Shown here piece by piece: positions 38,283 through 63,415 of a stretch of 64,000 nt of DNA. The stretch lies in the NCBI GenBank assembly GCA_913060565.1, contig CAJXRU010000001.1, forward strand, positions 1 through 64,000, written 5' to 3'. The notes under the pieces were generated by a model. It made no database searches. It was not told where the DNA came from and saw nothing but the letters and a program-made list of their open reading frames with translations. This DNA is from an uncultured Gammaproteobacteria bacterium (lineage in GTDB: Bacteria > Pseudomonadota > Gammaproteobacteria > Enterobacterales > Psychrobiaceae). The translations under genes and the position numbers were made by a program. Positions within the stretch are counted from its first letter, which is position 1; every line of letters begins with the position of its first letter.

Positions 38283-38300
38283 TTGTCATAGTTCTGTAAT
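38283..38300 (+). promoter_or_regulatory. Pho-box-like site upstream of the porin
   Basis: TTGTCATAGTTCTGTAAT matches the E. coli PhoB consensus CTGTCATAWAWCTGTCAY at 14 of 18 positions, with the two direct repeats 11 bases apart. It lies 68-85 bases before the porin ATG, in a normal position for PhoB activation. Confidence 0.65.
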
Positions 38301-38367: not shown

Positions 38368-39291
38368 ATGAATACATTTACAAAAACAGCGGTTGCAATT
38401 GCAACAAGCTTAATCCTTGCTAACACTGCAGTTGCTGGCGAGAAAGTGAAAGTATACGGTAAAGTTAACGCCACATTACAAAGCGATGACACCGGTGAAC
38501 GTGAAACAGATATTAAATCTAACGCATCTCGTTTTGGTGTTAAAGGTGGCGTTAAATTAGATGGCAACCTTTCAGCAATTTATCAAGTTGAGTGGCAAGT
38601 AAATATCGCTGATGATGGCGAAGACAATATTAAAGCGCGTAGCCAGTGGGTTGGCCTAAAAGGCGATTTTGGTACCGTGATGCTTGGTCGTAATGATACG
38701 GCGATGAAAAAATCTCAGGGTAAAGTTGATTTATTTAACGATTACAACGCAGATATCAAAAACTTATTCAGTGGTGACAACCGCTTAGACGACACCCTAA
38801 CGTATATTTCGCCAAAGAAAAATGGTTTCTCTGTTCGTGCCACGTTCATTGCTGAAAGTGGTTACAAATCAGAAGGTGAAAATGGTACTAGTATTTCATT
38901 GATGTACGGTGACGCCAAACTGAAAAAATCTAAATTTTATGCAGCGGTAGCATTCGATTCTAAAGTAGCTGGTAGTGATACAACACGCGTTACTATGCAG
39001 GGTAAATTGGGCGATCTAAAATTGGGCGCGATTTACAATGAGTCTGAATACACAGACGGTACATCAGATGGTGACGGTTTCTTAGTAAGCGCAGCTTATC
39101 CAGTAGGTAAAGCAACACTTAAAGCACAATATCAAGACAGTGATGACAAAAAATCTGGTGATGTTGTGTCAGTAGGTGTTGATTACAAACTTGCTAAAAA
39201 CGTTAAATTAACAGGTTTTTACACTGACTTTTCTTTTGATGACGGTAAAGAAAAAAGCCACCTAGCCGTTGGCATGGAATACAAATTCTAA
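38368..39291 (+). CDS. Gram-negative porin, probably phosphate-regulated
   Basis: 307 residues with a signal peptide of 23 residues (cleavage after AVA). The mature part begins GEKVKVYGKVNATLQ, the family's first strand. It is made of alternating amphipathic beta strands and ends in the C-terminal outer-membrane signature VGMEYKF with terminal Phe. Trimeric general porin of the OmpC/Porin_4 type is expected. A Pho-box-like site upstream and phoB downstream suggest induction under phosphate limitation, as for PhoE or OprP, but this is inference from context. Confidence 0.88.
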   Translation: MNTFTKTAVAIATSLILANTAVAGEKVKVYGKVNATLQSDDTGERETDIKSNASRFGVKGGVKLDGNLSAIYQVEWQVNIADDGEDNIKARSQWVGLKGDFGTVMLGRNDTAMKKSQGKVDLFNDYNADIKNLFSGDNRLDDTLTYISPKKNGFSVRATFIAESGYKSEGENGTSISLMYGDAKLKKSKFYAAVAFDSKVAGSDTTRVTMQGKLGDLKLGAIYNESEYTDGTSDGDGFLVSAAYPVGKATLKAQYQDSDDKKSGDVVSVGVDYKLAKNVKLTGFYTDFSFDDGKEKSHLAVGMEYKF

Positions 39292-39453: not shown

Positions 39454-39471
39454 TAGTCATATTTGTGTCAC
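39454..39471 (+). promoter_or_regulatory. Pho-box-like site upstream of phoB
   Basis: TAGTCATATTTGTGTCAC matches the PhoB consensus at 14 of 18 positions. It lies 52-69 bases before the phoB ATG and fits positive autoregulation of phoBR. Confidence 0.65.
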
Positions 39472-39522: not shown

Positions 39523-40212
39523 ATGAGTGCAAGGATACTCGTTGTTGAAGATGAAGCAGCTATTCGAGAAATGCTGTGTTTCGTTTTAGAACAGCAGGGC
39601 TTCGATGTTGTTGAAGCGCATGATTACACGTCGGCAGTTGATTGTTTAGTTGAGCCGGTACCCGATCTAATATTACTTGATTGGATGTTTCCAGGCGGCA
39701 ACGGCATTAGCCTCGCAAAAGAAATTAAGCGCCACGAACTAACCAAAGAAGTGCCTATTATTATGCTAACGGCACGTGGTGAAGAAGAAGACAAAATTCG
39801 CGGTTTGGAAGTCGGTGCAGATGACTATATTACTAAACCATTCTCGCCTAAAGAATTGATTGCGCGAATTAAAGCGGTATTGCGCCGTGCAATGCCAACA
39901 GCGTTAGAAGAGCTAATTGATGTGAAAGGGTTGGTGTTAGATCCTGTTAGCCATCGCGTTAGTCTTAATGAACAGCCAGTGCCCATTGGTCCGACTGAGT
40001 TTAAGCTGCTCCACTTTTTCATGACTCACAGTGAACGTGTCTATAGTCGTGAACAGTTACTGGATCATGTTTGGGGCACAAACGTCTATGTTGAAGATAG
40101 AACTGTTGATGTTCATATCAGACGACTACGCAAAGCGATTGGCGGGCACGGGCATGAAAACTTTGTGCAAACCGTGCGCGGTGCAGGCTATCGCTTCTCA
40201 ACACGAGTTTAA
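39523..40212 (+). CDS. phoB: Phosphate regulon response regulator PhoB
   Basis: 229 residues, the same as E. coli. The receiver has phospho-acceptor Asp53 in [11 protein letters not shown], with Thr of MLTARG and Lys of TKPFSP. The OmpR-type winged helix includes [12 protein letters not shown] and [16 protein letters not shown]. The [10 protein letters not shown] text is typical of PhoB itself rather than other OmpR regulators. It is followed directly by phoR. Confidence 0.97.
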
Positions 40213-40215
40213 TTG

Positions 40216-41562
40216 ATGCTTGATAACCAGCTATTTAATAAGATTGCCGCTAAACTTAGCGGCTTTTATCTTTGCCTTCTCATCATTGGATTAATGACCT
40301 CAGAACTTTTTATCGTTCTGTTTGTTGGTACTTTTCTTCTATTTATTTTTAATCTGAAACAGTTCCACAAATTGGTGCTGTGGGTATGGCAATCGCCGCA
40401 AAAGAAACATCAAGGAAGTAGTTCAAGCTGGGATAATGTGTACTATGGCGTTGACAATATTCAGCGTGGAAATCGTCGTCGCCGCCGTCAACTCGTTAAT
40501 AATTTGGGCGAATTTCGACAAGGTGCCGATGCATTGCCTGATGGCGTTGTCATGTATAACGAAGAAAACAATATTCTGTGGTGTAACAGCCAAGCGCGTG
40601 CTTTGTTAGGTTTAAAATGGCCGACGGATCAAGGGCAGCGTCTTGATAACCTTATTCGTTATCCACAGTTTTCTGAATATCTTGCCGCTCGCGAATATAA
40701 CCAAGCATTGCTAATTCAATCGCCAGCCGATGAAGACATCTTGTTAGAAAATCGCATTATTTCTTACGGCGAAAATCAATATCTATTAGTGTCCCGTGAT
40801 GTGACACGTTTGAATCAGCTTGAAGAGATGCGCAGAGAATTTGTAGCCAACGTCTCTCACGAATTAAAGACGCCATTGACAGTACTTCAAGGCTACCTTG
40901 AGTTAATTGATGATGTCGATGGCGGTAGTCGCAGTAGTAACAAAGCTGTTCGCGCTATGCGTATGCAAACATCGCGCATGCAGTCGATGGTTGAGCAATT
41001 GCTTGCGCTTTCAAAACTAGAGTTTTCATCCATTGCTTCAAAGCACACCAAAGTGAACATGCAAGAGCAAATGGACATGTTGGAGTCTGATGCGATGAGC
41101 CTGATTGGCGAGCGCGACATGACCGTGCATTTTGATGTTGAACAGAATCTGGATGTATATGGCGACGAAACTCAAATTTACAGCGCATGCGCCAACTTAG
41201 TGACTAATGCAATTCGTTACTGCCCGGATGGTAGTTCAATTTGGGTCACTTGGCATCATCACCCTCATGGCGCGCAGTTTATGGTACGTGATAATGGACC
41301 AGGGATAGCTCCAATTCACCTTAACCGTTTAACAGAACGTTTCTATCGCATTGAACAATCACGCTCAAGCGAGAGCGGTGGCACCGGACTTGGACTGGCC
41401 ATTGTTAAACATGTTCTTAAAAATCATCAATCTAGTTTAAAAATTAAAAGTACGCTTGGCAAAGGATGTCGCTTTAGTTTTGTGATCGATAATGATCGTA
41501 TTGTTTCGTTTATTAACAAAAATGGTCAATTAAATGAATCGTCACAAAAGCTTAATAATTAA
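40216..41562 (+). CDS. phoR: Phosphate regulon sensor histidine kinase PhoR
   Basis: 448 residues from the ATG at 40216; a TTG at 40213 abuts the phoB stop and is the alternative start. There are two close membrane helices at the N-terminus with no real periplasmic domain, a DUF3329/charged linker, a PAS domain (about 95-190, ALPDGVVMYNEENNILWCN), then HisKA with NVSHELKTPLTVLQGYLE and HATPase with DNGPGIAP and GGTGLGLAIVKHVL. This matches PhoR, which senses through the PstSCAB-PhoU complex. Confidence 0.96.
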   Translation: MLDNQLFNKIAAKLSGFYLCLLIIGLMTSELFIVLFVGTFLLFIFNLKQFHKLVLWVWQSPQKKHQGSSSSWDNVYYGVDNIQRGNRRRRRQLVNNLGEFRQGADALPDGVVMYNEENNILWCNSQARALLGLKWPTDQGQRLDNLIRYPQFSEYLAAREYNQALLIQSPADEDILLENRIISYGENQYLLVSRDVTRLNQLEEMRREFVANVSHELKTPLTVLQGYLELIDDVDGGSRSSNKAVRAMRMQTSRMQSMVEQLLALSKLEFSSIASKHTKVNMQEQMDMLESDAMSLIGERDMTVHFDVEQNLDVYGDETQIYSACANLVTNAIRYCPDGSSIWVTWHHHPHGAQFMVRDNGPGIAPIHLNRLTERFYRIEQSRSSESGGTGLGLAIVKHVLKNHQSSLKIKSTLGKGCRFSFVIDNDRIVSFINKNGQLNESSQKLNN

Positions 41563-41578
41563 GTCACCTAACTGTCAC
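41561..41578 (+). promoter_or_regulatory. Pho-box-like site upstream of pstS
   Basis: AAGTCACCTAACTGTCAC matches the PhoB consensus at 14 of 18 positions; the second repeat CTGTCAC is perfect. It overlaps the last two bases of the phoR stop codon and lies 79-96 bases before the pstS ATG. Confidence 0.65.
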
Positions 41579-41656
41579 TTAATTAATGCAACATAAGCCT
41601 CGTTTACAACTTAATGACACAATAGTTCTTATAAAAGAACGTTATCGGAGTAACAA

Positions 41657-42634
41657 ATGAAATTATTAAAACTAGCGCGCAATATCGGTCTAACCCTATT
41701 AACCTCTGGTTTAGTGGTATCGGCAAACGCGTCAACAATTGACAAAAAATTACCGGACTACGTTAAAACTCAAGGTGTTTCAGGCAACATGTCTTCGGTA
41801 GGTTCTGACACATTAGCGAATATGATGACATTCTGGGCTGAAGAATTTAAGCGTAACTACCCAAATGTAAACATTCAAATTCAAGCGGCTGGTTCTTCTA
41901 CTGCGCCACCGGCATTAACTGAAGGTACGTCTCAATTCGGTCCAATGAGCCGTAAAATGAAAGCGCGTGAAATTGAAGCATTCGAAAAGCGTTTTGGTTA
42001 CAAGCCAACGCCAGTTCGCGTAGCTATTGATGCACTTGCAGTATTTGCACACAAAGACAACCCAATTGAAGGCTTAACAATTGCACAAGTTGATAGCATC
42101 TTCTCTGTAACCAATAAGTGTGGTGGCAAACCAGTTAACCGTTGGGGTGATTTAGGTCTAACAGGTAGCTGGGAAGGGAAAGACATCCAGTTATACGGAC
42201 GTAATTCAGTATCTGGTACTTATGGTTACTTTAAAAAGAAAGCACTGTGTAAAGGTGACTTTAACACAAAAGTAAATGAGCAACCGGGTTCTGCATCTGT
42301 AGTGCAATCAGTAGCATCGTCTATCAATGCACTAGGTTACTCAGGTATCGGTTATAAAACATCAAGCGTTAAAGCAATTGCTCTCGCTAAGAAAGGCACT
42401 AATTACGTTGCTGCAACGAAAGAGAATGCATTGAACGGTACTTACCCACTTTCTCGTTACCTATACGTATATGTGAACAAGCACCCAAACAAGCCATTAG
42501 CGCCAATGGATCGTGAGTTCTTAAAAATGGTTCTTTCTAAAACTGGTCAGAAGATTGTTGCTAAAGATGGTTACATTCCACTATCTGCAAAAGTAGCAAA
42601 CAAAGAGCTTAAAAAGCTAGGCATCAAACTTTAA
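41657..42634 (+). CDS. pstS: Phosphate ABC transporter substrate-binding protein
   Basis: 325 residues with a signal peptide of about 25 residues (SANA cleavage). A class II periplasmic binding fold with phosphate-contact motifs [30 protein letters not shown] and [13 protein letters not shown]. It captures phosphate for PstCAB. It is separated from pstC by about 14 kb; here it stands alone with its own Pho-box-like site and terminator, next to phoBR. Confidence 0.96.
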
Positions 42635-56215: not shown

Positions 56216-56233
56216 ATGTAATATTAGTGTCAT
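56216..56233 (+). promoter_or_regulatory. Pho-box-like site upstream of pstC
   Basis: ATGTAATATTAGTGTCAT matches the PhoB consensus at 14 of 18 positions. It is 52-69 bases before the pstC ATG, the same distance as the site upstream of phoB. Confidence 0.6.
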
Positions 56234-56284
56234 ATTGACAGGATAGAATTACGCCAGTTTTATGGTAATTAGGAAATTTACTTG

Positions 56285-58528
56285 ATGTCACAGTCTGCAG
56301 ACACATTAACAAGTCGACAACGCAGCGATTTAGGAGCCAGCGATCCGTTGCGTGCTTTTAAAGATAAGCTTGCCCAATATAGTATTACTATGGGTGGGTT
56401 AATGGTGCTTATGACGTTGTTAATGATATTTGGCTACCTACTATATGTTGTAGAGCCAGTATTTCGCAATGCAAGTATCGAAATTCAACAGCAACAAAAA
56501 CTAGAAGCGAACACAAATGTTGTCGCCACTGGTAGTGATGAATTAAACGAAATTGCTTATTACTACACAGACAAAGGCCAGTTGCGTTTCTATCCCTTAG
56601 TTGAAACTAGTCCTGCAAAAAGCGTTGTTGAGTTGCCACTTGTTGCTTCTCAATCGATTTCTAGTATTGCGTCGTCGGGAAGTGACGTTGCTTTTGGCTT
56701 AAATGACGGCGGCTTAATGGTTTCTCAGCCTAGCTTCATGATGAGTTTTACTGACAAGGGTCGTGAAATTACGCCACAAGTGAGGTATCCACTGGGTGAA
56801 GAAAGTCTGACGATTGATGCACAAGGTCAACCTTTGACTCAATTGGCTTTTCAACGTGATGAAGAACAGGTGTCAGCTGTTGCATTGACGCAAGATCATC
56901 GTTTGCTGCTATCAACGCTAGTTGCTGAAGAAAACTTCATGACGGAAGAAATTGAATGGGTTAGTGAGACCAATCAATTACATGGCATTCCAACGAGCAT
57001 CAGTAAGTTACAAATTACCCCTGATCAACGTTTATTATTCGTATTGAGCAGTAATCAATTATATATCTACGATATTGTAGCTGGCGCTTTTGATGCGCCG
57101 CGTCAAGTCGTTGAAATTAATGAGCCAGGCGCGAAAGTGACAGACATTAGTTTAATGTCTGGTGGCAGTTCAATTTTGGTGGGTAACTCGAATGGCGTTA
57201 TCACCCAATGGTTTGAAACGAAATCTGACCGCGGTCGTCGATTAACAAAGATCCGTAATTTTACTGTTGAAGGTAGCGTTGAAAAGATCCAAGCTGAACC
57301 CTTTAGAAAAACTTTTGCAGTACTAAATGATAAAGGTGATCTACGCTTGTTTCACTCAACCAGTGAAGCTGACTTACTTGATGAACCATTAGTTAATAAA
57401 GCAACTGCACTACAATTTTCGCCGCGTAATAACGCGTTAATCTTTACCACTAAAGACAGCATTGACTTTTATAACCTTGAAAACGAACATCCAGAAGTTA
57501 CATGGAGCGCGTTATGGCAAGAGGTTTGGTATGAAGGTTATCCTGAAGCAGATTACGTATGGCAATCAACGTCAGCAAGTGATGATTTTGAACCTAAATT
57601 GTCATTAGTGCCAATTTCGTTTGGTACCATTAAAGCAGCACTCTATGCAATGTTATTCGCGGTTCCTATCGCCATCGCCGGTGCTATTTATACAGCTTAT
57701 TTCATGCCGCCTAATTTACGTAAAGTTGTTAAGCCAACCGTTGAAACAATGGAAGCGCTGCCAACGGTTATTTTAGGTTTTTTAGCGGGTTTGTGGCTTG
57801 CGCCGATTGTTGAAGAATACTTACCTTTTGTTTTCATGATTATTTTTGTCATTCCGGCAACGATAGTGTTGTTTGCGTTCATTCATCATAAGTTACCTAA
57901 AAAATGGCGTAATATTCTTAACGAAGAATACTCAACGCTGATGCTTATTCCGATTATTTTGTTGGCGTCGATGGCATGTTATGGCCTAAGCCCGATGATT
58001 GAAGAGGCATTAATGGGCGGCGATGCGCGTATGTTCATTAGTAATGAGTTAGGCATCGACTTTGACCAACGTAATGCGCTTATTGTTGGTATTGCGATGG
58101 GCTTTGCGGTTATCCCAACGATTTTCTCAATTACTGAAGATGCAATTTTCAGTGTTCCTCAACACTTAAGTAACGGCTCTCTTGCCTTAGGTGCTACGCG
58201 CTGGCAAACACTGGTTGGTGTGGTGCTATTAACAGCTTCGCCGGGTATTTTCTCCGCCGTTATGATGGGACTTGGCCGCGCAGTCGGCGAGACAATGATT
58301 GTATTGATGGCAACAGGTAACACACCAATCATGGATTGGAACATCTTTGAAGGTATGCGTACCTTGTCGGCGAACATTGCAGTAGAAATGCCAGAGTCAG
58401 AAGTTGGCTCCACTCATTATCGTGTGCTGTTCTTAGCAGCCTTCGTATTATTTATATTCACTTTCTTCTTTAACACCGTGGCAGAGGTTGTTCGTCAACG
58501 TCTGCGCGATAGATATGGTTCGCTGTAA
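56285..58528 (+). CDS. pstC: Phosphate transporter permease PstC with inserted propeller-like domain
   Basis: 747 residues from the ATG at 56285 (TTG at 56282 is in frame); E. coli PstC has 319. After a first membrane helix (about 38-58) there is an insert of roughly 380 residues containing at least six blade-like repeats (for example ISKLQITPDQRLLFVLSS, VTDISLMSGGSSILVGNSNG, ATALQFSPRNNALIFTT). This suggests a WD40-like beta-propeller, predicted periplasmic. From about residue 440 the standard permease follows, with EALPTVILGFLAGLW and the coupling loop GATRWQTLVGVVLL...GRAVGETMIVL. It overlaps pstA by one base. Confidence 0.93.
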   Translation: MSQSADTLTSRQRSDLGASDPLRAFKDKLAQYSITMGGLMVLMTLLMIFGYLLYVVEPVFRNASIEIQQQQKLEANTNVVATGSDELNEIAYYYTDKGQLRFYPLVETSPAKSVVELPLVASQSISSIASSGSDVAFGLNDGGLMVSQPSFMMSFTDKGREITPQVRYPLGEESLTIDAQGQPLTQLAFQRDEEQVSAVALTQDHRLLLSTLVAEENFMTEEIEWVSETNQLHGIPTSISKLQITPDQRLLFVLSSNQLYIYDIVAGAFDAPRQVVEINEPGAKVTDISLMSGGSSILVGNSNGVITQWFETKSDRGRRLTKIRNFTVEGSVEKIQAEPFRKTFAVLNDKGDLRLFHSTSEADLLDEPLVNKATALQFSPRNNALIFTTKDSIDFYNLENEHPEVTWSALWQEVWYEGYPEADYVWQSTSASDDFEPKLSLVPISFGTIKAALYAMLFAVPIAIAGAIYTAYFMPPNLRKVVKPTVETMEALPTVILGFLAGLWLAPIVEEYLPFVFMIIFVIPATIVLFAFIHHKLPKKWRNILNEEYSTLMLIPIILLASMACYGLSPMIEEALMGGDARMFISNELGIDFDQRNALIVGIAMGFAVIPTIFSITEDAIFSVPQHLSNGSLALGATRWQTLVGVVLLTASPGIFSAVMMGLGRAVGETMIVLMATGNTPIMDWNIFEGMRTLSANIAVEMPESEVGSTHYRVLFLAAFVLFIFTFFFNTVAEVVRQRLRDRYGSL

Positions 58529-60204
58529 TGACTATTGGAACTAATGTAATGAACTCTTGGAGAAAAAGCGGCTCGCCAATGATTTGGCTTACCTCAGGTG
58601 CGGTAAGCATTAGCTTAATTGCGGTTATTGGCTTGTTGATATTAATCGCTTGGCGTGGTCTGGTTTATTTTTGGCCAAGTACTATTTATCAATTTGATGT
58701 GGTTAATCCACAGGGCCAAGTTGAAACCGTTATTGGCGAAGTGTATGAAATCGATAGTATTCCAGCACAGCGTTTACGTGAGAATGGCCATAATATTCCA
58801 AGTGAAGTGACTGAGGTTGAGTCAAAACTTGTAAAGACGGGTAACCGTGAATTCGTTGAGCTGGATTTTCGTTGGTTATTGGGCCCAACAATCACCAAGC
58901 AACAAGCGTTGCCAAACCTTGCCGTTTTTGAGCGAAATAAAAATGGTAACTTTTACGGTTTTATTAACAGTGTAACGGTTGACGGTAAAAAGAAAACAGG
59001 TGAGATGGCGACACTAGTGGCGACGCTAGACGATGCCTTAGCACGTGTTGAAACATTGCAAGAGCAAGCTGATGAGCTGCAATCAAGTGAAATTAATAGC
59101 ATTAACTATAAGCTTGAAAAGATTCGCTTAAAACAGCGTCGTTATGAAATTGATAATGAGCTGACACCTGAACGTTTAGCTGATTTAGACGCGCAGCGTA
59201 AAACGCTTAATGATAAATATTTAGTTCACGAAGCCAAGCTATTTAAATTCCGTAATGAAATGACACGTGATTTTGTGACAGTCAAAGACATGCGCGGTGA
59301 GTTGGTAGACATTAACTTGAGCTATCTACTGAGCTTTAATCTACCAAACCAAATGGGTGTAATTACTAAGTTTGGTCATTGGTTGGTTAATATTGGCAGC
59401 TTCGTGATGGATGATCCTCGTGAAGCAAATACTGAAGGTGGCGTATTCCCAGCAATTTTCGGCACCATTTTTATGGTTATGCTGATGGCTGTTATCGTGA
59501 CGCCTTTTGGTGTTGTAGCTGCTATCTACCTACACGAGTACGCTAAAAAGAACGTGTTCACCAAGTTCATCCGCATTGCAGTAATCAATCTTGCAGGTGT
59601 ACCATCGGTGGTTTACGGCGTATTCGGTTTAGGATTCTTTGTTTACATACTCGGTGGCAGTATTGACGAATTGTTTTATCCTGAATCTTCACCGTCGCCT
59701 GTGTTTGGTAGTCCAGGTGTTATGTGGTCTGCATTGACGTTAGCTATTTTGACCTTACCTGTCGTTATCGTTTCGACGGAAGAAGGTTTATCACGGATCC
59801 CTATTTCGTTACGTCAAGGTAGCTTGGCCCTAGGTGCCACTAAAGCAGAAACATTGTGGAAGGTTATTATTCCAATGGCTAGCCCAGCAATAATGACTGG
59901 TTTGATTTTGGCTGTTGCTCGCGCAGCAGGTGAAGTTGCGCCATTGATGCTGGTGGGTGTGGTGAAAATGGCCCCGACCTTACCAGTTGATGGCAACTTC
60001 CCATTCTTCCATTTAGATAGAAAATTCATGCATCTAGGTTTCCATATCTATGATGTGGGCTTCCAAAGCCCGAACGTTGAAGCTGCAAGACCGTTAGTAT
60101 TTGCCTCTTCATTCTTATTAGTAACCGTAATTGTTGGTTTGAATATGGCGGCGATTCGCATTCGAAACTTATTACGTGAAAAATACCGTTCATTAGAACA
60201 CTAG
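58528..60204 (+). CDS. pstA: Phosphate transporter permease PstA with inserted coiled-coil domain
   Basis: 558 residues; E. coli PstA has 296. After the first helix (about 18-45) comes an insert of about 240 residues, starting beta-rich (VVNPQGQVETVIGEVYEI) and continuing as a coiled coil (about 165-250, YKLEKIRLKQRRYEIDNEL in part). The permease core then follows with PSVVYGVFGLGFFVYILGG and the coupling loop GATKAETLWKVIIPMASPAI...ARAAGEVAPLML. Start overlaps the pstC stop (TAATG). Confidence 0.94.
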   Translation: MTIGTNVMNSWRKSGSPMIWLTSGAVSISLIAVIGLLILIAWRGLVYFWPSTIYQFDVVNPQGQVETVIGEVYEIDSIPAQRLRENGHNIPSEVTEVESKLVKTGNREFVELDFRWLLGPTITKQQALPNLAVFERNKNGNFYGFINSVTVDGKKKTGEMATLVATLDDALARVETLQEQADELQSSEINSINYKLEKIRLKQRRYEIDNELTPERLADLDAQRKTLNDKYLVHEAKLFKFRNEMTRDFVTVKDMRGELVDINLSYLLSFNLPNQMGVITKFGHWLVNIGSFVMDDPREANTEGGVFPAIFGTIFMVMLMAVIVTPFGVVAAIYLHEYAKKNVFTKFIRIAVINLAGVPSVVYGVFGLGFFVYILGGSIDELFYPESSPSPVFGSPGVMWSALTLAILTLPVVIVSTEEGLSRIPISLRQGSLALGATKAETLWKVIIPMASPAIMTGLILAVARAAGEVAPLMLVGVVKMAPTLPVDGNFPFFHLDRKFMHLGFHIYDVGFQSPNVEAARPLVFASSFLLVTVIVGLNMAAIRIRNLLREKYRSLEH

Positions 60205-60236: not shown

Positions 60237-61061
60237 ATGATTAATCTTGAACCAACAGATGCAGCCACACAAGATCAGGTGTTGGACTTAGCAAACTTAA
60301 CTGATGAGCAAACGGCATTTTCTATTGAAGACCTTGATTTGTTCTATGGCGATAAACAAGCCTTAAAAGGCGTTTCAATGCGCATTCCTAAAGGCCAAGT
60401 AACCGCATTTATCGGTCCGTCTGGCTGTGGTAAGTCAACGTTGTTACGTTGTATGAATCGTATGAATGACTTAATTGATAACTGTAATATCACCGGTGAA
60501 ATTAAGTTAGAACAACAAAATATTTTCGATCGCAATGTTGATGTTGCGACATTGCGCCGCCGTGTAGGCATGGTATTCCAACGTCCTAATCCATTCCCTA
60601 AATCAATTTATGAAAACGTGGTTTACGGCTTGCGTTTACAAGGTGTGAAAGATCGCCGTGTACTTGATAAAGCCGTTGAAGAATCACTACGCGGTGCCGC
60701 GTTGTGGGATGAAGTGAAAGATCGTTTGCATGATAACGCACTTGGTTTATCTGGTGGTCAGCAACAACGTTTAGTGATTGCTCGTGCTATTGCTATTGAG
60801 CCTGAGGTATTATTACTTGATGAGCCAACATCAGCACTAGACCCTATCTCAACCTTGGTTATCGAAGAGCTAATTACTGAGCTTAAAAACAAATTTACTG
60901 TCGTGATTGTAACGCATAACATGCAACAAGCGGCGCGTGTTTCTGATAACACGGCATTTATGTATATGGGTGAATTGATTGAATATAGTGATACCAATAC
61001 GCTGTTTACAACGCCTGCGAAAAAACAAACTGAAGATTACATCACCGGTCGATACGGTTAA
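60237..61061 (+). CDS. pstB: Phosphate transporter ATPase PstB
   Basis: 274 residues (E. coli 257; extra residues are an N-terminal tail). Walker A is [11 protein letters not shown], followed by the PstB-specific [11 protein letters not shown]-loop [17 protein letters not shown], signature LSGGQQQRL, Walker [13 protein letters not shown] and H-loop VTHNMQQA. It powers phosphate import through PstCA. It lies 32 bases after pstA and 12 before phoU. Confidence 0.98.
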
Positions 61062-61073
61062 TAGGAACTCAAG

Positions 61074-61778
61074 ATGGATAATGTAAATTTAAAACGTCAT
61101 ATTTCAGGACAATTTAACTCTGAGTTAGAAGGGATCCGTAACCATGTACTGTTAATGGGTGGCTTGGTTGAAAAACAATTGGGCGATGCAATCACTGCCA
61201 TTAGCACCATGGATGTGAGCCTAGCTGAAGATGTATTGAAAAACGATCGCAAAGTTAATACTTATGAAGTCGCGATTGATGAAGAATGTACGCGTATTAT
61301 TGCCAAGCGTCAGCCTGCGGCGGGTGATTTACGTTTAATCTTCGCTATTTCTAAAACGGTAACCGATTTAGAGCGTATTGGTGACAGCGCTAAAATGCTG
61401 GCTAAAGTGGCGCTTGAGAAGAAATCGTCCAACCAAGGCGGCTTATTAGTGAGTTTGGAAAATCTTGGACGCCAATGTGTCACCATGCTTCACGATGTGC
61501 TTGATTGTTTTGCTCGTATGGATGTGGATTCTGCCTTTGATGTGCATCGCACAGACAACTTAATCGATGCGCAATATGAAAGTTTGATGCGTGAATTAAT
61601 GACTTACATGATGGAAGATCCTCGTGCGATCCCAAGCATCATGGAAGTGATGTGGGCAGCACGTGCATTAGAGCGTGTTGGTGATAGAGCACAAAACATT
61701 GCTGAATACGTTATTTACTTTATTAAAGGTAAAGATATTCGTCATTTAGATGACGAAGAGATTGCTCAACTTCGCTAG
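61074..61778 (+). CDS. phoU: Phosphate signalling protein PhoU
   Basis: 234 residues, two PhoU three-helix bundles with metal-binding motifs (DEECTRIIAKRQP, DLERIGDSAKMLAKVAL and ALERVGDRAQNIAEYVIYF). It links PstB activity to inhibition of PhoR. It is the last gene of pstCAB-phoU, as in E. coli. Confidence 0.97.
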   Translation: MDNVNLKRHISGQFNSELEGIRNHVLLMGGLVEKQLGDAITAISTMDVSLAEDVLKNDRKVNTYEVAIDEECTRIIAKRQPAAGDLRLIFAISKTVTDLERIGDSAKMLAKVALEKKSSNQGGLLVSLENLGRQCVTMLHDVLDCFARMDVDSAFDVHRTDNLIDAQYESLMRELMTYMMEDPRAIPSIMEVMWAARALERVGDRAQNIAEYVIYFIKGKDIRHLDDEEIAQLR

Positions 61779-61897: not shown

Positions 61898-63415
61898 ATG
61901 AATTTACTGGCAAAAATTTCGTGGATAAAAAATAAAAAGCCATTTTTTACATTGCTACTTATTATTGCTATCGCATTTTCTGCGATCACTCTTTATTTTA
62001 ATCAACTGCACAAAAAACTTATTGAGCACAGTGCCATTGAAAGCGCTCAAAGGTATGCGGAAGTATTAACTGAATTTCGCAGCATTTACACATCTCAAGT
62101 AGTATCTCGATTAGCAACCAGTAGCATTGACGTTAGCCATGATTACAATCTCAAGCATCATAGTATTCCATTACCAGCGACATTTACTATGTTGTTAGGG
62201 GAGTCGGTTAACAATCACCACAAGGACGTAGGAATCCGCCTTTATAGCCCTTACCCTTTTCCGTGGCGGAAAAATGGCGGAGGAATAGTAGATGATTTTG
62301 GGCGGCGCGTATGGAATGAGTTATCTATTAGCGACACTAAAATAGTGACTGAATTCGAAGACGTTAATGGTATACCGCATGTTCGTTTAGCAATGGCCGA
62401 TGTGATGGCTGATGATTGCGTTGATTGCCATAATAACCATCCACAATCACCTAAAACAGATTGGGAAGTTGGTGAGTTGAGAGGAATTCTCGAAGTCACT
62501 ATGCCAATGAATACTAGTGTCTTAATGGCCGATTCAATCGTATCGAGCATGGCTATTTTAGTGGCTGGTTTGCTGCTAATTGCATTATTTGGTGGCAGTT
62601 ATCTCATTCTTCTCCAGAGCAAGCACCAAATTGAAAAGATGAAAAATGATGAGCTGCTTAGCCAGTTCAAAGAATCACAGAAAATGGCGGAACTAGGGGG
62701 CATGGTGGCGTCAACAACTCATGAAGTCGCAACGCCATTGGGTAATATTAACTTAGCACTAGATCATCATTTATTAAGTACTGAGCAAATTAATTCAGCA
62801 GTACAAAATAATAAACTAAAACAGTCACAGCTTTCACAATATTTGGAAGACTCAATCAAAACAGTGAGTATGTGTTTATCCAATAATTCACGCGCTAGTA
62901 AACTCATTGCGAGTTTTAAACATATCGCAGTTAACCAGTGTAATAATAAGAAGTTAACCGTTAACTTAGCCAATTATGTTAGTGATATTTTACTCACCAA
63001 TAAACCAACGATAAAACAATATCAGCATGAAATAATAGTCAATATCGGACAGGAAATAGAGGTTAGTTGTTACGCTGGTGGATTAGCGCAAGTCATCACT
63101 AATTTGATTAATAATGCGCTGATCCATGCCTTTAAAGAAAAACATGGCGGCACCATTAATATTACCGCGTGGCAGGACGTTGATTTTTGGTTTGTTGAAG
63201 TAGCTGATAACGGCAAGGGACTATCGGAACCGATGCAAGACAAAGTATTTGAACCCTACTTTACAACTAGACTAGGCCAAGGCGGTTCAGGTTTAGGTCT
63301 ATCAATTTGCAAAGAGATCGTTGAACTTGAGCTGGGGGGAAATCTTACAATAAATAGTGAACTAGGGCAGGGCACTACATTTACGCTTTCAATAAAATCA
63401 TCAGTGAATGCCTAA
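61898..63415 (+). CDS. Histidine kinase with heme-binding Tll0287-like sensor domain
   Basis: 505 residues. The first helix is at about 13-33. A periplasmic DUF3365/Tll0287-like domain (about 40-205) carries a c-type heme motif DDCVDCHNNHP with Cys174, Cys177 and His178, followed by GELRGILEVTMPM, typical of the family. The second helix is at about 215-235. HisKA has the phospho-His near 275 in TTHEVATPLGN, and the HATPase has ADNGKGLS and GQGGSGLGLSICKEI. It is a likely redox or gas sensor. It has no linked response regulator and follows phoU by 120 bases. Confidence 0.9.
   Translation: MNLLAKISWIKNKKPFFTLLLIIAIAFSAITLYFNQLHKKLIEHSAIESAQRYAEVLTEFRSIYTSQVVSRLATSSIDVSHDYNLKHHSIPLPATFTMLLGESVNNHHKDVGIRLYSPYPFPWRKNGGGIVDDFGRRVWNELSISDTKIVTEFEDVNGIPHVRLAMADVMADDCVDCHNNHPQSPKTDWEVGELRGILEVTMPMNTSVLMADSIVSSMAILVAGLLLIALFGGSYLILLQSKHQIEKMKNDELLSQFKESQKMAELGGMVASTTHEVATPLGNINLALDHHLLSTEQINSAVQNNKLKQSQLSQYLEDSIKTVSMCLSNNSRASKLIASFKHIAVNQCNNKKLTVNLANYVSDILLTNKPTIKQYQHEIIVNIGQEIEVSCYAGGLAQVITNLINNALIHAFKEKHGGTINITAWQDVDFWFVEVADNGKGLSEPMQDKVFEPYFTTRLGQGGSGLGLSICKEIVELELGGNLTINSELGQGTTFTLSIKSSVNA

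Follow-up and report, generated by a model that had tools for sequence, protein, structure and literature searches.

How the phosphate transporter PstSCAB reports phosphate to PhoR is a long-standing open question whose working model rests on E. coli. The locus described here, from an uncultured gammaproteobacterium, encodes a Pst system in which both permease subunits, PstC and PstA, are far larger than those of E. coli. What are the additional domains, how are they distributed, and what might they do for import or signalling? The stretch of DNA analyzed, hereafter the window, is 64,000 nucleotides long and contains the following genes of the Pst and Pho systems.

56285–58528, plus strand: pstC, long-form phosphate ABC transporter permease (TIGR02138 and PF00528 above cut-off; full-length relatives)
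58528–60204, plus strand: pstA, long-form phosphate ABC transporter permease (TIGR00974 above cut-off)
60237–61061, plus strand: pstB, ATPase (TIGR00972, 417 bits)
61074–61778, plus strand: phoU (PRK11115 and TIGR02135 above cut-off)
41657–42634, plus strand: pstS, family TIGR02136 (ptsS_2), the sole PBP_like_2 protein found in the genome
40213–41562, plus strand: phoR (TIGR02966 and PRK11006 above cut-off)
39523–40212, plus strand: phoB (TIGR02154 above cut-off)

Identity of the transporter

The open reading frame of pstC extends from a TTG at 56282 to 58528, with an ATG present at 56285; residues are numbered here from the TTG. PstC has 748 residues and PstA 558, which makes them 2.3 and 1.9 times the size of their E. 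coli counterparts, as the first-pass annotation had estimated in calling both about twice that size. The two genes overlap by one base and are followed by pstB and phoU, while phoB, phoR, and pstS lie 14 kb upstream of pstC-pstA, inside the same window.

Both permeases score above the cut-offs of curated equivalog families: PstC reaches 204.9 bits against TIGR02138 (cut-off 196.45) and PstA 247.3 bits against TIGR00974 (cut-off 193.45). A permease-domain search of the genome returned seven matches, and the identification as Pst covers the PstC/PstA pair. With pstB and phoU downstream and one PstS in the genome, the components of PstSCAB are all represented. NCBIfam names the long forms plainly PstC and PstA. 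The segments GRAVGET in PstC (R666, E670) and ARAAGE in PstA (R465, E469) are invariant among the relatives and correspond to the region of the E. coli transport-essential residues, PstA R220 and PstC R237/E240, which are required for transport and dispensable for signalling (PMC5775613). Because the family cut-offs are passed and these motifs are invariant, the locus is best read as a working Pst system with additions rather than as a different transporter. Judged from its sequence, it encodes a complete and probably functional phosphate importer whose permease subunits carry a periplasmic superstructure.

The nearest solved structures by sequence are those of E. coli PstSCAB (PDB 9k3s, 9k3x, 9k3y), which share the permease core, the GRA/GET motifs, PstB, and PhoU with the system described here. 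However, PstC and PstA of E. coli K-12 (319 and 296 residues) have neither the periplasmic domains nor an extra transmembrane hairpin, and the E. coli PstS belongs to TIGR00975, whereas the PstS encoded here belongs to TIGR02136.

Several other features were observed around these genes. A porin gene, possibly for a phosphate porin, lies directly upstream of phoB-phoR-pstS (38368–39291). Directly downstream of phoU is a histidine kinase gene (61898–63415) with a Tll0287-like sensor and a CxxCH motif; no strong relative of this kinase was recognized next to pstCAB-phoU in 80 named loci. Weak Pho-box-like matches precede the porin gene (38283–38299), phoB (39454–39470), pstS (41561–41620), and pstC (56216–56232), but the scan gave 20 matches in total where chance predicts 16.6, which is not above chance level and by itself carries no evidential weight.

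Architecture of the inserts

Hydropathy places one large insert in each permease, in both cases between the first and second transmembrane helices (TM1 and TM2; TM1 of PstA is residues 23–41). This agrees with the earlier reading that both lie at the same topological place, after the first helix. The sites are upheld by alignment with PstC of E. coli and seven other propeller-free PstCs, in which the extra sequence of PstC precedes a conserved LW..VWYE segment that aligns with FLWTKEW of E. coli. The parts of the two proteins are as follows.

56396–56452, plus strand: TM1 of PstC, residues 39–57 (hydropathy; K/R before TM1)
56465–57481, plus strand: predicted periplasmic insert of PstC, a seven-bladed WD40-type beta-propeller, residues 62–400 (AlphaFold, Foldseek, Pfam propeller matches, coevolution)
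57482–57619, plus strand: neck of PstC, residues 401–446, NEHPE-SW-LW-VWYE-WQS-FE-K, joining the propeller to TM2 (column conservation)
57821–58015, plus strand: extra transmembrane hairpin of PstC, helices 514–537 and 548–578 (AlphaFold helices, alignment)
58663–59403, plus strand: predicted periplasmic insert of PstA, a beta domain with a helical hairpin, residues 46–292 (AlphaFold, pLDDT mostly above 80)
59005–59265, plus strand: antiparallel helical hairpin of the PstA insert, 160–208/214–246 (AlphaFold, coevolving pairs)

The N-termini of both proteins bear K/R residues before TM1, and such positive residues suggest that the N-terminus is inside and hence the inserts outside. Across 225 homologues, cysteine accounts for 6 of 84,141 residues in the propeller and neck, versus 114 of 68,953 in the membrane part of PstC. 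Near-absence of cysteine is usual for the periplasm. Both patterns are consistent with periplasmic inserts, as had been proposed, and nothing indicates a cytoplasmic location.

The AlphaFold model of PstC, built with 62 natural sequences, contains 28 strands between residues 65 and 400, arranged as seven blades of four, with pLDDT mostly between 80 and 95. Foldseek matches the modelled insert to 1,433 PDB chains at E < 0.001, the best being the seven-bladed WD40 protein Gbeta (E 2.5e-12). Coevolution, computed from 225 paired sequences (effective number about 160–180), points the same way: in 13 of the top 20 propeller pairs the two strands are no more than five apart, versus 29% expected, and the couplings 94–389 and 89–380, which rank eighth and ninth among long-range propeller pairs, link the first and last blades. 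These couplings and the strand pairing support a closed ring independently of AlphaFold, so that model, fold search, and coevolution together identify a beta-propeller in the sense of a closed ring of four-stranded blades. The first-pass annotation had thus recognized the propeller fold and undercounted its blades, giving at least six. The fold is that of WD40/Gbeta propellers such as eIF3i, the PkwA WD40 domain, and Gbeta, with TM-scores by target length of 0.6–0.68 for the better matches, but identity to them is only 8–18%, and the PstC propeller is inserted in a permease and predicted to be periplasmic. Membership of the WD40 repeat family does not follow, since PF00400 gave a weak match in 1 of 26 members (E 0.005); Pfam propeller models match the insert weakly yet recurrently, and the NUP159/214 and EML models do so where PF00400 does not.

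Conservation is unevenly distributed along PstC. In the neck, 23 of 46 columns are at least 95% conserved, compared with 21 of 339 in the propeller, which is fast-evolving and has few invariant polar residues. An enzymatic role for the propeller was considered but is not supported, given that scarcity; a fast-evolving propeller on a highly conserved neck fits a scaffold better. The neck is modelled at low confidence (pLDDT below 50 for residues 416–445), so a location of the propeller above the pore is tentative.

The overall anatomy given by the first-pass annotation was right, if slightly understated, and overlooked the extra transmembrane hairpin of PstC (residues 514–578). This hairpin separates the third core helix from the fourth, is missing in all the propeller-free PstCs compared, that of E. 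coli included, and is present in the related loci checked. In a distant relative (locus L134, genome G247), a diverged long PstC of 882 residues has a far longer stretch at the same site.

For PstA, the membrane part of the AlphaFold model is poor, and interpretation is limited to the insert. The long coiled coil noted previously was right in kind: it is an antiparallel hairpin within a beta domain, and the pairs 180–237, 199–220, 203–224, and 206–216 coevolve across it. The insert has no Pfam family common to its members, no convincing sequence match in the PDB, and no PDB fold match below E 0.08 in Foldseek. DUF3333 and DUF3708 are Pfam families of other long Pst permeases; neither matches PstC, PstA, or the insert alignments. 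The motifs of the PstA insert are highly conserved, and K103, N106, R107, D113, and R136 are near-invariant polar residues. Elsewhere in PstA, residues 481–522 (59968–60093) form a nearly invariant stretch, NFPFFHLDRKFMHLGFHIYDVGFQSPNVEAARPLV, that is longer than in E. coli and is a candidate periplasmic loop facing PstS.

Distribution and joint inheritance

A scan of genome contigs yielded at least 576 confirmed relatives, the best 80 of which include proteins from Aeromonas, Shewanella, Pseudoalteromonas, Colwellia, Idiomarina, Photobacterium, and Moritella. Long PstC occurs in 85 of 274 gammaproteobacterial genomes spread over the class, and most of these proteins align end to end at 43–63% identity. 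A model of the propeller matches 118 of 369 genomes. Both counts confirm that the observation is real and beyond chance. The expectation that long forms occur in marine gammaproteobacteria holds and can be widened to Aeromonas and others, amounting to about one third of the sampled gammaproteobacterial genomes.

In the 369 genomes, the propeller model matches PstC alone, once per genome (one gap-split match aside), and in open reading frames of PstC length save for broken or truncated ones; the propeller has therefore not been shuffled as a mobile domain. In a sample of 299 genomes from across Pseudomonadota, all 33 propeller matches fall in Gammaproteobacteria. Because the propeller is restricted to this class across the sampled genomes, the long form is probably an old gammaproteobacterial form with a patchy distribution within families. 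It differs from the medium-length, propeller-free PstCs of 460–490 residues found in many sampled genomes. These are likewise enlarged over E. coli, but their extra sequence, which has hydrophobic stretches of its own, precedes TM1 (loci L130, L131, and L132), whereas the propeller lies between TM1 and TM2.

The two inserts come and go together. The PstA insert is present in all 85 genomes with long PstC, and both inserts are found in 223 of 223 relative loci (L009–L117 and L138–L251). The PstA insert occurs in 87 genomes altogether; the exceptions to the pairing are one at the end of a 3.25-kb contig (G186) and one marginal match (G014, E 5.5e-4). Families f46, f78, f119, f136, f149, f152, and f157 include both propeller-bearing and propeller-free members, and the bearers have the whole package. 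The earlier suggestion that the inserts belong together is therefore strongly supported in the evolutionary sense. Coevolution between them is a different matter. Strong pairs between the propeller and the PstA insert (z > 5) number 29, versus 2–12 in neighbour-swapped controls, but their density of 7.4 per 10,000 pairs does not exceed the 13–15 between propeller and membrane part, and the excess is accordingly read as shared ancestry.

Across 80 related loci, the order pstC-pstA-pstB-phoU is kept in 79, and in 79 the recognized Pho genes near pstC are limited to pstA-pstB-phoU, to which pstS, phoB, and phoR may be added. A pstS lies within the stretch around pstC in 14 of these 80 loci, and several pstS genes adjoin long pstC. 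The long permeases are accompanied by one PstS family: TIGR02136 is above cut-off in 80 of 85 long-PstC genomes versus 13 of 189 others, and the E. coli-type TIGR00975 in 1 of 85 versus 34 of 189. Fisher values for these counts take no account of common descent and do not amount to independent evidence. Shared ancestry and transfer of the whole system both confound the association. Moreover, TIGR02136 PstS does not require the inserts, since 13 genomes have it without a recognized long PstC.

Possible roles of the inserts

The explanation that we favor, at close to an even chance of being right, is that the inserts form a periplasmic cradle that docks and orients PstS of the TIGR02136 type, in the manner of MalF-P2. 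It is preferred because the inserts are on the binding-protein side, come and go together, and accompany one PstS family. The PstC propeller and the PstA domain would stand over the periplasmic mouth of the permease and together receive PstS, as MalF-P2 does MalE. Such a cradle would hold PstS near the permease and may set the outward and inward conformations that are proposed as the signal to PhoU and PhoR. Of this picture, the folds, the insertion sites, the joint occurrence, and the link to TIGR02136 PstS are computational results, whereas the placement over the pore, contact with PstS, and any influence on transport or signalling are inferred.

A precedent is provided by MalFGK2, a type I importer whose permease has a large periplasmic domain, MalF-P2, that touches the binding protein (PMC3150292); according to Daus et al. 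(2009), as cited there, MalF-P2 interacts with MalE during the whole cycle. MalF-P2 (residues 91–271) is nevertheless a different insertion and belongs to one subunit only, whereas the Pst inserts are on both permeases. Homology is not indicated, as Foldseek gave no significant match between the PstA insert and the MalF-P2 fold (best MalFGK2 match, E 0.083). The first-pass annotation had proposed that the inserts may dock PstS, and the TIGR02136 association together with the MalF-P2 precedent makes this more plausible.

Alternatively, though this seems unlikely, the inserts may anchor the importer to an envelope component, such as peptidoglycan, an outer membrane porin, or a periplasmic phosphatase, and so create a site of phosphate channelling while PstS docks as in E. 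coli. Propellers are general protein-binding platforms, which suits an anchor, and the porin gene at 38368–39291 adjoins phoB-phoR-pstS in the window. In 79 of the 80 loci, however, the recognized Pho genes offer no partner beyond the Pst and Pho genes listed above, and anchoring leaves the link to one PstS family unexplained.

Two further proposals are less probable still, and about equally so. According to one, which the first-pass annotation had raised for phosphate, the inserts are sensory: phosphate, or some other periplasmic ligand, would be bound by the propeller or the PstA domain, which would then alter the signal passed to PhoU and PhoR. PstSCAB conformations have been proposed to signal to PhoR, which has no periplasmic sensor of its own (PMC5775613), and the near-invariant polar stretches of the PstA insert would suit a binding function. 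Yet no ligand site was found, invariant polar residues are few in the fast-evolving propeller, and a short PstC is the only one in many sampled genomes, so that signalling in general needs no inserts. According to the other, the inserts are an ancestral accretion that helps the permease heterodimer to fold or stay stable and has no part in transport or signalling. The high divergence of the propeller, the lack of an insert-specific contact signal in the coevolution analysis, and joint inheritance in an operon, which accounts for the co-occurrence, all fit this proposal. It is harder to reconcile with the fact that 223 loci from many families have kept both inserts, with no partial loss although short working versions exist nearby, and with the highly conserved neck and PstA-insert motifs. 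The least probable reading, a distinctly long shot, is that propeller and PstA domain form a periplasmic sensory tower, which would read whether a dedicated PstS is loaded with phosphate and impose that state on the permease; if true, the Pho system would sense phosphate directly in the periplasm, by a device that is missing in E. coli.

No description of a long-form Pst permease was found in the open-access literature, a search scope outside which most subscription journals fall; this matches the first-pass remark that no functional description was known. The long form is a real, conserved, and undescribed variant of a known transporter, and the well-known Pst system thus has a widespread, built-out form, one part of which, the PstA insert, is also of no recognized fold. 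If about one third of gammaproteobacterial genomes carry some 590 extra periplasmic residues on this importer, the picture of its periplasmic face drawn from E. coli would not be general. The inserts would also be natural handles, on each subunit separately, for telling the docking of PstS apart from transport and signalling.
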